From positions 1-25,379 of IMG/VR virus record IMGVR_UViG_3300042451_000099: a stretch of DNA of 25,379 nt; one strand, written 5' to 3'. Shown here piece after piece: positions 8,625 through 14,657 of the stretch. Made by a program: the position numbers and the translations under genes. The DNA comes from a virus. Below the pieces are notes generated by a model. It worked only from the letters and a program-made list of their open reading frames with translations, was not told the DNA's origin and made no database searches. Position 1 is the stretch's first letter. Each line of letters opens with the position of its first letter.

Positions 8625-9014
8625 ATGAATTTAATAAAGATTACAGAATTAATAGAAAGATACGAGTTAAACACACCATCTCGCAAACGTGAAAAAGTGT
8701 ACATAAGAAGCGTATTGTATCATTTTCTACGCAGCAACAGAATGACATTAGATAGAATAGGTAAAATGTTTGGTAAAGGACACGCTACAATTTTACACGG
8801 CTTGGAATGTTACGATAGAAATAAAAACTATCCAGACTTCAAAGAGTTAATTGAGTTAGTAGAAAACGAGTTAGAAGTTTCTTGCATTGATATACCAGAC
8901 GAAGACAAATTGCAGTTAACAGAATCAGAATTGGATATATTAGAAGCTAATTCATTGCAGGACTTTTGGCAGATTAAAAATAATTTAATAAAAAAGTTAT
9001 CAATTAAAGAATAA
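8625..9014 (+). CDS. DnaA domain IV-like DNA-binding protein
   Basis: 129-residue protein. Residues 24-65 (VYIRSVLYHFLRSNRMTLDR and on to IGKMFGKGHATILHGLECY) match the helix-turn-helix of bacterial DnaA domain IV, where G-x-H-x-T contacts the DnaA box. Here the usual D-H-S-T is G-H-A-T. No ATPase domain is present, so it cannot act as a full initiator. It may bind an origin, recruit or displace host DnaA, or regulate transcription. The C-terminal half is acidic. Promoter sequence for the next gene overlaps its end. Confidence 0.75.
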   Translation: MNLIKITELIERYELNTPSRKREKVYIRSVLYHFLRSNRMTLDRIGKMFGKGHATILHGLECYDRNKNYPDFKELIELVENELEVSCIDIPDEDKLQLTESELDILEANSLQDFWQIKNNLIKKLSIKE

Positions 9015-12048: not shown

Positions 12049-12317
12049 ACACTAAACAACGAAAAGACTTAGACTTAACCTTAGCGTTAACTTTACAGAT
12101 GCAGTCAATACTTCATACATTAGACGAACTATCACACGAAGTAATCTACAAACGTGAATTTAAACAACGATGCGAAAACTTTTACACGTGGGTTGAAAAG
12201 ATAGTTGAGAATGTAAGCGAACAACTACCAGAAGATACTGCTCAACGTTGGGTTGACATTGTTAATGAAATTGATAAAATTGTTCAAAAGATTCAATTGT
12301 TTGAAGATGAAAAGTAG
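12045..12317 (+). CDS. Hypothetical helical protein (90 aa)
   Basis: 90-residue all-helical acidic protein (LALTLQMQSILHTLDELSH, and FYTWVEKIVENVSEQL), plausibly a coiled-coil dimer. It is the last gene before the promoter and leader at 12307-12445; the -33 element lies in its final codons. No family is recognised. Confidence 0.6.
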   Translation: MNTKQRKDLDLTLALTLQMQSILHTLDELSHEVIYKREFKQRCENFYTWVEKIVENVSEQLPEDTAQRWVDIVNEIDKIVQKIQLFEDEK

Positions 12318-12336
12318 TTAGTATATTGTATATTTG
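12307..12336 (+). promoter_or_regulatory. Probable promoter of leader RNA
   Basis: TATATTTG at 12329-12336 is a perfect -7 box. At 19-base spacing the -33 triplet (12307-12309) is ATG, a one-base change from TTG, as at 7628. RNA should start near 12340, just before the first hairpin. Confidence 0.65.
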
Positions 12337-12339
12337 CAG

Positions 12340-12431
12340 AGTTGCAGTCTCAAACATAGGCAACAAAAGGAATTTTAATTAACCCTTATAATGAAGTAGC
12401 TTGAGACTCTACGGATTTATAGGGGTTTTTT
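12340..12431 (+). ncRNA. Structured leader RNA with kissing loops and terminator, upstream of replication initiator
   Basis: Hairpin 1: GTTGC (12341-12345) pairs with GCAAC (12360-12364) around a 14-base loop. Hairpin 2: AACCCTTATAA (12381-12391) pairs with TTATAGGGGTT (12417-12427) over 11 pairs. Then comes a symmetric 4x4 internal loop (TGAA 12392-12395 opposite GGAT 12413-12416), then GTAG/CTAC (12396-12399/12409-12412) and a 9-base loop. AGTCTCAA in loop 1 (12346-12353) is the exact complement of TTGAGACT in loop 2 (12401-12408), giving an 8-pair loop-loop contact. A 6-T run ends it. It is 128 bases of gene-free DNA with no ORF except ATG-AAG-TAG at 12391-12399. It is probably a leader that attenuates the following gene, or a free small RNA. 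Confidence 0.65.
12381..12431 (+). terminator. Intrinsic terminator / attenuator before the replication initiator
   Basis: The 11-pair stem of hairpin 2 (one T-G wobble) is followed directly by six T (12426-12431). It lies 15 bases before the start codon of the next gene, so without antitermination the gene would be expressed poorly from the promoter at 12307-12336. Confidence 0.75.
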
Positions 12432-12445
12432 AGTTTATAAATATT

Positions 12446-13090
12446 ATGAGTGGTTGGATAAAATTACACAGACAGATTTTAGAGTGGGAATGGTTTGACG
12501 ATAAGAATACGTTTAGGTTATTTATGTATTTACTTTTAAAAGCTAATCACAAAGAAAGAAATTACAGAGGAAAATTGATTGAAGTTGGTCAAACTTTAAC
12601 TGGTTTGGATTTATTAAGTAAAGAAGTTGGTTTGACAATTCAACAAATAAGAACGTCTTTAACTAAGCTAAAATCAACAAACGAAATAACAATCAAAACA
12701 AGCTCGAAAGGTACTATTATTCAGGTAGTTAACTACAAAAAATATCAGATAGTAACAAACCAAATAACAGATGAGCAACAAACCAATAACAAACAAGTAA
12801 CAACTAACAAGAATGAAAAGAAAGAAAAGAATGAAAATAATACATTTACACCGCCTTCGGCTTTTGATGTTTTAGACTATTGTAAAGAAAGAAAAAACTA
12901 TGTTGATGCTGAAACATTTATTGCATTTTATCAATCAAAAGGTTGGATGGTTGGTAGAAACAAAATGAAAGATTGGAAGGCTTGTGTACGTACTTGGGAA
13001 AAAAGTAGTCTTGGACAAATTAAACAACAAGAACCAATTGAAGATAAATATATGAATCACGTAATGAAACAAATAAACTTAAACAAATGA
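12446..13090 (+). CDS. Replisome organizer / replication initiator protein
   Basis: 214-residue protein. The N-terminal winged-helix domain (1-105) starts SGWIKLHRQILEWEWFDD and includes LIEVGQTLTGLDLLSKEVGL and IQQIRTSLTKLKSTNEI, a pattern of phage replisome organizers (DnaD/gpO-like). A Gln/Asn/Lys-rich linker (110-135) leads to a small C-terminal domain with FIAFYQSKGWMVGRNKM and DWKACVRTWE, like DnaD/DnaB-loader modules. Such proteins bind the phage origin and load the helicase. Origin-like repeats are not evident in the gene by eye. It follows the structured leader and overlaps the methyltransferase start (ATGA). Confidence 0.75.
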   Translation: MSGWIKLHRQILEWEWFDDKNTFRLFMYLLLKANHKERNYRGKLIEVGQTLTGLDLLSKEVGLTIQQIRTSLTKLKSTNEITIKTSSKGTIIQVVNYKKYQIVTNQITDEQQTNNKQVTTNKNEKKEKNENNTFTPPSAFDVLDYCKERKNYVDAETFIAFYQSKGWMVGRNKMKDWKACVRTWEKSSLGQIKQQEPIEDKYMNHVMKQINLNK

Positions 13091-13749
13091 AAGTAACAGA
13101 TAAAATAACAATAACGAATGAAGATAATATGCTTTTGATGGCACGTTATCCAGATAATTATTTTGATTTAGCTATTGTAGACCCTCCTTACGGAATTAAT
13201 GCAGATAAGAAAAATAATGGAGCAAATAGTGATTATCATTTAAAAAATAGTAAAGCAAAAATAAATAATTATAAAACAGGTTGGGATTCTAATATACCTT
13301 CTGATGCTTATTTTAATGAATTAAAAAGAGTTTCTAAAAAACAAATTATATGGGGTGCTAATTTTTTTGGATTAAAAGGTGGATATTTATATTGGCATAA
13401 AAATGTAACTATGCCTACATACAGCACAGGAGAACTTGCTTGGTTAAGTTGGTTAAATAAATTAGATTTTTTAAATTTAACTTGGCACGGAATGTTACAG
13501 CACGATATGAATAATAAAGAAACAAGGATACACCCAACTCAAAAACCCGTTGCACTTTATAAATGGATTTTAGATAAGTACGCAAAAGAAAACGATAAAA
13601 TACTTGATACGCATTTAGGTTCAGGAAGTATTGCAATAGCTTGTCACGATTACGGATTTGAACTTACTGCTTGCGAGTTGGATAAAGAGTATTACGATAA
13701 AGCAATACAACGAATTAAAAACCATACTAACCAACAAAAACTATTTTAA
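13087..13749 (+). CDS. DNA methyltransferase (N6-adenine or N4-cytosine, beta class)
   Basis: 220-residue enzyme. Catalytic motif IV is DPPYG (32-36) and the AdoMet motif I is DTHLGSGSIA (174-183), the order IV then I that marks the beta class. HPTQKP (149-154) is the conserved element before motif I. It transfers a methyl group to an exocyclic amino group of A or C. DPPY is more common in adenine enzymes. No restriction nuclease is next to it, so it is probably an orphan that protects phage DNA or marks the origin. Codon use is more AT-rich than its neighbours (AAT, GAT, TTA), suggesting recent gain. Confidence 0.88.
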   Translation: MKVTDKITITNEDNMLLMARYPDNYFDLAIVDPPYGINADKKNNGANSDYHLKNSKAKINNYKTGWDSNIPSDAYFNELKRVSKKQIIWGANFFGLKGGYLYWHKNVTMPTYSTGELAWLSWLNKLDFLNLTWHGMLQHDMNNKETRIHPTQKPVALYKWILDKYAKENDKILDTHLGSGSIAIACHDYGFELTACELDKEYYDKAIQRIKNHTNQQKLF

Positions 13750-14657
13750 TGATTTTAAACAACGGACATAGTACTCAATACTTAAATGACTATTTAGATG
13801 GTAAGATTCCAACTGGTTTAAAATTAGGTTGCGACTTAGACGACTTCTTCGTTCATAAGCAAGGACAACTAAATGTTTTGTTAGGACACGATAACGTAGG
13901 TAAAACATATTTTTTAGAATGGTATTTTTTAGCACTTGCAACAAATCACAATTTAAAGTTTTGTTTGTTTATGGATGAGAACTATCAAGGTAAAGTAATG
14001 CGTGACTTAATTCAGATGTATTCTGGTAAAAAGTTTATGGATTTAACATACAACGAAGTTAGAAGATATGAAACAATACTCGAAAATTCGTTTAAGTTTG
14101 TAGATAATACCAAACGATATACTCCAGACGAATTGTTAAACATATTCGACAAAGCAGAATGCGATGTACATTTAATAGACCCGTTTAATGGTTTAAAAAC
14201 TCCGATGTCTTATAGTTCAAACTATGATGTATTAAACGATTTAAAGCACTTTACAAAGAATGGTAAAACAATCTACATAAATGCTCATCCAAGTTCAGCA
14301 AGTGGTAGACGCTCGGCAGTATATCCTGAAAAGCACGGATGGTCTGGTCACGTTATGCCACCATTAAAGTCAGACATTGAGGGTGGTAAAGCATTCGCAA
14401 ATAAAGCAGATGATTTTTTAGTAGTTCACAGATTAACACAACACCCAGACTTATGGAACTACACAATGGTAGAAGTAGTAAAGATTAAAGACACAGATAC
14501 TGGCGGTAAGCCAACGCTATTAAACGAGCCAATGATGATGGACTACAATTTTGGTTTAGGTTTTAAAGTTCGAGGAAAAGATGTGATAAAAAGATTAACT
14601 TCGCCAAGTACAAAAGCAATACAACCGAATGATTCATTTGATAGTTTACCATTTTAA
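13749..14657 (+). CDS. RecA-fold ATPase / putative replicative helicase with DSLPF tail
   Basis: 302-residue ATPase. Walker A is GHDNVGKT (46-53) and Walker B is CDVHLID (D144), followed by INAHPSS, which occupies the position of the DnaB/RepA histidine motif. The core fold matches RepA or DnaB-like hexameric helicase ATPases. The N-terminal domain is short, so a loader or primase domain is missing. The last residues are FDSLPF, the same tip as the SSB-like protein at 11099-11404. Its start overlaps the methyltransferase stop by one base (TAATG). It is probably the phage helicase, acting with the initiator at 12446. Confidence 0.75.
   Translation: MILNNGHSTQYLNDYLDGKIPTGLKLGCDLDDFFVHKQGQLNVLLGHDNVGKTYFLEWYFLALATNHNLKFCLFMDENYQGKVMRDLIQMYSGKKFMDLTYNEVRRYETILENSFKFVDNTKRYTPDELLNIFDKAECDVHLIDPFNGLKTPMSYSSNYDVLNDLKHFTKNGKTIYINAHPSSASGRRSAVYPEKHGWSGHVMPPLKSDIEGGKAFANKADDFLVVHRLTQHPDLWNYTMVEVVKIKDTDTGGKPTLLNEPMMMDYNFGLGFKVRGKDVIKRLTSPSTKAIQPNDSFDSLPF

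Follow-up and report, generated by a model that had tools for sequence, protein, structure and literature searches.

What kind of element occupies the short interval in front of the replication genes of this phage, and how might it act on them? The window analysed here (record IMGVR_UViG_3300042451_000099, 25,379 nt) holds the RNA under study at positions 12341–12431. A preliminary description had read this interval as a leader with a promoter, two hairpins with complementary loops and a terminator, placed before the gene of a replication initiator. Inspection of the sequence and folding confirmed every coordinate given for the hairpins, the loop segments, the TGAA/GGAT internal loop, the run of six T and the start codon (Table 1). 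The window RNA folded at −22.0 kcal/mol (z −2.2), with 4 of 200 shuffled sequences folding equally well, and under a permissive rule the window contained three 8-nt loop–loop complements, whereas dinucleotide-shuffled windows averaged 8.7. Because this z score is modest and 8-nt loop complements are not rare in an AT-rich window, the single sequence is no proof: the exact 8-nt complement is real, but taken alone it is within chance, and conservation and covariation decide. A consensus scan of the window did not flag the terminator at 12426–12431; its stem is interrupted by the internal loop, which is the probable reason.

Table 1. Features of the leader RNA and of the operon that follows it (positions in the window).
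Feature	Position	Strand	Remarks
−7 box TAnnTTTG, TATATTTG	12329–12336	+	predicted +1 at ~12341, first base of hairpin 1
Hairpin 1	12341–12364	+	5-bp stem S1; loop of K1 and ACATAG
S1 arms, GTTGC / GCAAC	12341–12345 / 12360–12364	+	5 bp
Kissing segment K1, AGTCTCAA	12346–12353	+	partner K2
Linker, AAAGGAAUUAUU	12365–12380	+	partly conserved; between hairpins 1 and 2
Hairpin 2	12381–12427	+	terminator stem S2, internal loop, S3, apical loop with K2
S2 arms, AACCCTTATAA / TTATAGGGGTT	12381–12391 / 12417–12427	+	11 bp
Internal loop, TGAA / GGAT	12392–12395 / 12413–12416	+	inside hairpin 2
S3 arms, GTAG / CTAC	12396–12399 / 12409–12412	+	4 bp
Kissing segment K2, TTGAGACT	12401–12408	+	partner K1
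U-run of the intrinsic terminator	12426–12431	+	3' end of the predicted 91-nt terminated RNA
Start codon of the first gene	12446	+	after the U-run
Replication initiator / DnaD-like helicase loader, 214 aa	12446–13090	+	operon gene 1; phrog_2514, E 1.6e-29
DNA methyltransferase (N6_N4_Mtase)	13087–13749	+	operon gene 2; PF01555, E 1e-15
DnaB/primase-helicase-like ATPase	13749–14657	+	operon gene 3; phrog_18375, phrog_239

The promoter proposed at this site was present; it follows the Bacteroidota pattern, having a clear −7 box but no clear −33 box. The E. coli-type hexamers at 12307–12334 were weak. On the minus strand, a scan of the window with the E. coli consensus listed a site at 12353–12325. 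The TAnnTTTG box was found upstream in 78 of 87 relatives and began in nearly all of them 11–15 nt before hairpin 1. From this spacing and from the position of the Flavobacterium sigma-A consensus box at −12 to −5 (PMC9723704), transcription is predicted to begin at, or close to, the first base of hairpin 1.

A protein search with the helicase loader returned 80 viral loci, and upstream of helicase-loader genes the same leader was encountered, with loop sequences that differed yet remained complementary. Two pattern scans of IMG/VR added many relatives, their loop complement being confirmed by script, and a covariance model (R1) recovered both, with scores of 73 bits for the window and 55–100 bits for relatives. 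The homologues that the preliminary description had proposed to look for with such a model were found, in about 80 distinct forms, in contigs of Bacteroidota phages; many of the carriers are uncultured viruses with hosts of Flavobacterium type. Their usual order (hereafter type I) consisted of an S1 of 5 bp, the 8 nt of K1 directly on S1, six loop bases (usually AUUAUA), the linker and the terminator stem, with hairpin 2 usually topped by UGAA/GGAU, a stem 3 of 4–5 bp and a 10-nt loop made of two purines and K2. The UGAA/GGAU internal loop and many unpaired bases were near-invariant, the U-run was conserved, and the linker measured 14–15 nt in most relatives when counted to a 10-bp S2. Loop 2 has 9 nt in the window vs. 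10 nt in relatives. The window RNA is a divergent member of the class.

Among 50 phage records searched as a whole, 47 held one copy of the RNA and three held two. The second type I copy of locus L345 (7873–7962, minus strand) differs in K from the copy before the initiator and precedes an operon of PAPS-reductase-like appearance. Two contigs carried two leaders each, G177 (L160 and L433) and G183 (L306 and L434); downstream of the copy in L433, and likewise in L434, lie a replication initiator and a helicase-like gene, so that these contigs may hold two replication modules or be chimaeric. In L323/L436, a type I RNA that is divergent and has a kiss of 9 nt was seen before an excisionase-like helix-turn-helix gene, outside a recognisable replication module.

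Covariation argued strongly for the proposed fold. Over 79 distinct RNAs, the 27 pairs taken together were 97.2% paired, with 557 double-changed cells vs. 190 in shuffles, counts that kinship among the sequences inflates, and a score that was reached in 0 of 500 shuffles; slid controls fell to approximately 40% paired. S1 was 99% paired, with changes on both sides in all five of its pairs, in a model-fitted alignment that favours its own stems but has the kiss outside the model. An unfitted MAFFT alignment of 17 sequences gave the same stems with RNAalifold. For the eight kissing pairs, covariation had been named beforehand as a check: they were 96.0% paired in the 79 RNAs, seven of the eight had changed on both sides, and 148 double-changed cells were counted vs. 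53 in shuffles (0 of 500 reaching the score), a count biased upward by the part of the sequences that was chosen by loop complement. Selection was made without that requirement for 40 covariance-model matches and 58 matches of the helicase sample. An exact 8/8 complement between K1 and K2 was kept in 66 of the 79 RNAs, compared to 6.5 expected with shuffled partners. Most kissing positions varied, and the spread of the outer ones over GC, CG, UA and AU argued for repeated compensatory change. Mean duplex energies of the kiss and of S2 were similar (−10.7 and −11.1 kcal/mol).

This covariation equally fits an intramolecular kiss, the pairing of two copies of the RNA, or a mutually exclusive K1:K2 antiterminator helix. 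Pairing between copies would make the leader a copy-number sensor, in which released 91-nt leaders kiss nascent ones in trans and alter their termination, as a self-antisense attenuator. K1 and K2 are indeed complementary between any two copies, a terminated RNA before a replication gene recalls plasmid copy control, and K differs between phages (28 different K1 sequences), as self-recognition predicts. However, the intramolecular kiss is strongly favoured by local concentration, the variation of K needs no special cause, since the sequences of S1 and S3 vary freely too, and the second copy of L345 shows that the leader also occurs before a non-replication operon. We regard this sensor as unlikely.

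The genes that follow tie the leader to replication. Protein clustering placed the initiator cluster within the first two genes after 74 of 87 RNAs and within the first four after 78, and 66 of the RNAs were followed within four genes by a member of a DnaB-like helicase family. Initiators of at least five domain types occurred in these operons; the domains included DnaD-like, DUF6291, Lin1244_N and HTH_36, and some phages had a BT4734-like/PriCT primase instead. Even where the initiator family differed, the operon was nearly always a replication module. In nearly all of approximately 100 contexts a start codon on the same strand followed, mostly 13–26 nt past the U-run and sooner in a few. This leaves no space for a second promoter after the U-run, from which we infer that the operon is expressed by read-through and, in turn, that termination is the likely controlled step. 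Control of the replication gene, as the preliminary description had proposed, is thus supported indirectly, by the closeness of the start codon and by the replication module that follows whichever initiator family is present.

The other outcome that had been envisaged, release as a free small RNA with separate targets, fared less well, since no copy in this set was found away from an operon start. A trans-acting RNA that stands before replication genes by chance could have its own promoter, compact fold and terminator, as is seen here, but it would hardly be followed by a same-strand start so soon in nearly all contexts, be so tightly tied to one operon type and be never convergent or remote in the set; this reading appears very improbable. 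The least credible reading makes the RNA a primer for, or a transcriptional activator of, a replication origin located here. The constant link with the initiator operon would suit it, whereas the GC skew has no switch at 12.3 kb and HNH genes or small ORFs lie between leader and initiator in many phages.

In many phages the interval between leader and initiator contained genes of NUMOD4/HNH type (by resemblance) or ORFs of 57–69 aa, with NUMOD4/HNH-type genes exactly between the leader and the initiator or primase in L020, L022, L042, L155, L299, L357 and others, as if the 3' side of the leader were an insertion hot spot. Elsewhere in the window, positions 8625–9014 encode a small protein whose helix-turn-helix resembles domain IV of DnaA (PF08299), and proteins of similar appearance adjoin the replication module in other phages (upstream of the initiator in L461, L464 and L433).

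Loci fetched by a helicase alignment regardless of the RNA gave a view of how general the leader is. It was present in 58 of 80 such loci; the others had too short an upstream sequence, an initiator against the preceding gene, or a different kissing leader (L486, L488–490 and L492). In the leaderless loci L461, L464–467, L469, L471 and L499, the initiator overlapped the upstream gene or lay within approximately 25 nt of it, and in L465 the RNA was present elsewhere in the locus. Since the leader is absent from some phages whose operon is very similar, it is not essential.

Leaders of a second class, type II, were defined from a pattern scan and alignment A5. They usually have a 7-nt loop paired throughout, an AGUA/GAAA internal loop and a 3-bp stem under K2, and many contain an AUUAUU(G/A)A stretch resembling the linker of the window. 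Kiss and stem 3 were 100% paired in 19 sequences, and all six counted kissing pairs had changed on both sides, with a score reached by 0 of 500 shuffles, in a set found partly by loop complement and biased upward in the same way; by one measure, further pair types, the set was not above shuffles. The conserved bases of type II differ from those of type I at the same place, and both types were located before the same kinds of genes. Type II was observed before replication initiators, ParB-like genes and NUMOD4/HNH-type genes (L517, L521, L525, L561, L132:3937, L587:4690–4775 and others), and the two types stood before different operons of one phage in L473, L479 and L132. A match to model R2 (E 3e-4) was obtained in the cultured Flavobacterium phage 11b (AJ842011, 33639–33724). 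Its kiss, CGGGCAG/CTGCCCG, has 7 bp, and it precedes the gene of a 212-aa protein that is DUF6291-like by resemblance, with one small overlapping ORF between. In L006 and L007, which have an initiator 93% identical to that of the window and the promoter and upstream gene in common with it, yet another hairpin pair was found (L006:2700–2800 and the same place in L007), with 6-bp complementary loops GTGCCG/CGGCAC; it lacks both the type I and the type II internal loop and fits both classes poorly. That leader classes have been exchanged at one locus suggests that what is selected is the pair of kiss and terminator.

The sequence of the window presents a promoter motif, two hairpins with a predicted 8-bp kissing helix, a linker and a predicted terminator before the first gene, and the leader that had been described is supported in this respect. 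In our judgement, 12341–12431 is probably a kissing-loop attenuator that acts in cis on transcription of the phage replication operon. RNA polymerase would start at hairpin 1; if hairpin 2 closed fully, transcription would stop and an RNA of approximately 91 nt would be released. If the loops kissed first, the rigid kissed helix would stretch the 14–15-nt linker and keep the outer terminator pairs open, and the polymerase would read through into the replication genes. Kiss and full terminator probably compete, since by a rough estimate the stacked stems span approximately 30 bp, near the limit of such a linker. A signal (a small molecule, a protein or RNA copies from other genomes) would set the balance through the conserved bases of loop, linker and internal loop.

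Two versions of this trigger can be distinguished. The loop-1 bases, the linker and UGAA/GGAU may form the ligand pocket of a small-molecule riboswitch that stabilises the kiss, for which the many near-invariant unpaired bases, the several unrelated downstream genes and a layout as in guanidine-IV and Gd4v would speak; on the other hand, the genes are those of replication rather than metabolism or transport, and the different conserved bases of class II look more like interchangeable structural modules than one pocket, which leaves such a switch conceivable but doubtful. Alternatively, a phage or host protein may read the internal loop and the kissed loops for antitermination or autoregulation. 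The internal loops resemble rigid non-canonical modules; we take that of type I to be tandem G-A and that of type II (AGUA/GAA) to be a bulged-G loop E. However, autoregulation by the initiator alone misfits several unrelated initiator families, and no conserved regulator gene was identified, so that a protein site too is only tentatively put forward.

Beyond the attenuator of the window, it is possible, though speculative, that Bacteroidota phages use an interchangeable family of kissing-loop terminators (at least two classes) as gates of their replication operons, with the kiss as the switch and a signal of the phage cycle, e.g., genome copy number, as its input. To our knowledge, no gate of this kind is known for phage replication. 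The finding would be significant in that a strongly supported structured RNA class outside Rfam lies on replication operons whose initiators belong to several unrelated types, and does so in abundant uncultured phages, which suggests that the onset of replication in such phages is gated by co-transcriptional RNA folding. Flavobacterium phage 11b, which carries a class II member, offers a cultured system for testing.

The preliminary description had not recognised the RNA as a known class, and the searches agreed. Rfam 15 gave no match at the gathering score over the whole window, nothing relevant at the RNA when the threshold was relaxed to E 10, and nothing relevant in relatives; no description of this RNA was found in the literature. 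A pattern scan of 84,980 species genomes gave 95 matches, none with the loop-1 complement, and a first look with the covariance model at four Bacteroidota genomes found none. Searching 50,697 phage records with three RNAs by blastn gave short chance matches only, and the helicase search reached only distant Cellulophaga and Maribacter phages among cultured phages and nothing in plasmids. A generic kissing-leader descriptor was set aside, since it had many matches on reversed sequence too, and only conserved-core matches were used.

Among known systems, leader termination before a replication initiator with loop–loop RNA contacts occurs in the plasmid attenuators of pIP501 and pT181, but there the antisense RNA is a molecule of its own, transcribed from the opposite strand, whereas the phage RNA has both partners in one transcript. 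The P4 CI RNA and the P1/P7 c4 RNA are phage leaders in which RNA–RNA pairing stops the transcription of replication or antirepressor operons; unlike the proposed attenuator, they act in trans for immunity. Purine, guanidine-II and other kissing-loop riboswitches likewise build their active fold by loop–loop contact; these riboswitches differ in their stems and have no terminator hairpin as kissing partner, and the phage RNA had no Rfam match.

The closest likeness is to the guanidine-IV riboswitch (GGAM-1 or mepA motif) and Gd4v, which have the same two hairpins, a loop–loop pseudoknot and a 3' hairpin that is the intrinsic terminator (PMC9788692), and which are likewise cis leaders before several unrelated genes (PMC7736828, PMC9788692, PMC11611296). 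In guanidine-IV, control of termination has been measured, and a model in which the kiss hinders the terminator is backed by single-molecule work (PMC7736828, PMC11611296). The genes differ, being those of phage replication here and sugE, MATE, GNAT, transaminase or exporter genes in guanidine-IV/Gd4v. Most kissing positions of the phage RNA covary freely, its internal loop is UGAA/GGAU, and its loop 2 is nearly constant at 10 nt. The kissing loops of guanidine-IV are described as containing highly conserved bases (G66, U67 and G72 of the L. lactis RNA). The Rfam 15 search gave no guanidine-IV match, the presence of that family in Rfam 15 being uncertain. Loci near SMR exporters, examined for a direct comparison with guanidine-IV, yielded guanidine-I matches only, and candidate look-alikes stayed unconfirmed. 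The best reading by analogy is that the phage RNA would work like guanidine-IV leaders; class membership is not claimed, as the gene associations differ. We regard the RNA class as new and the device that it forms, the kissing-loop attenuator, as one of a known kind in a new place; it would be a second natural use of the principle that sets a kissing loop against a terminator.
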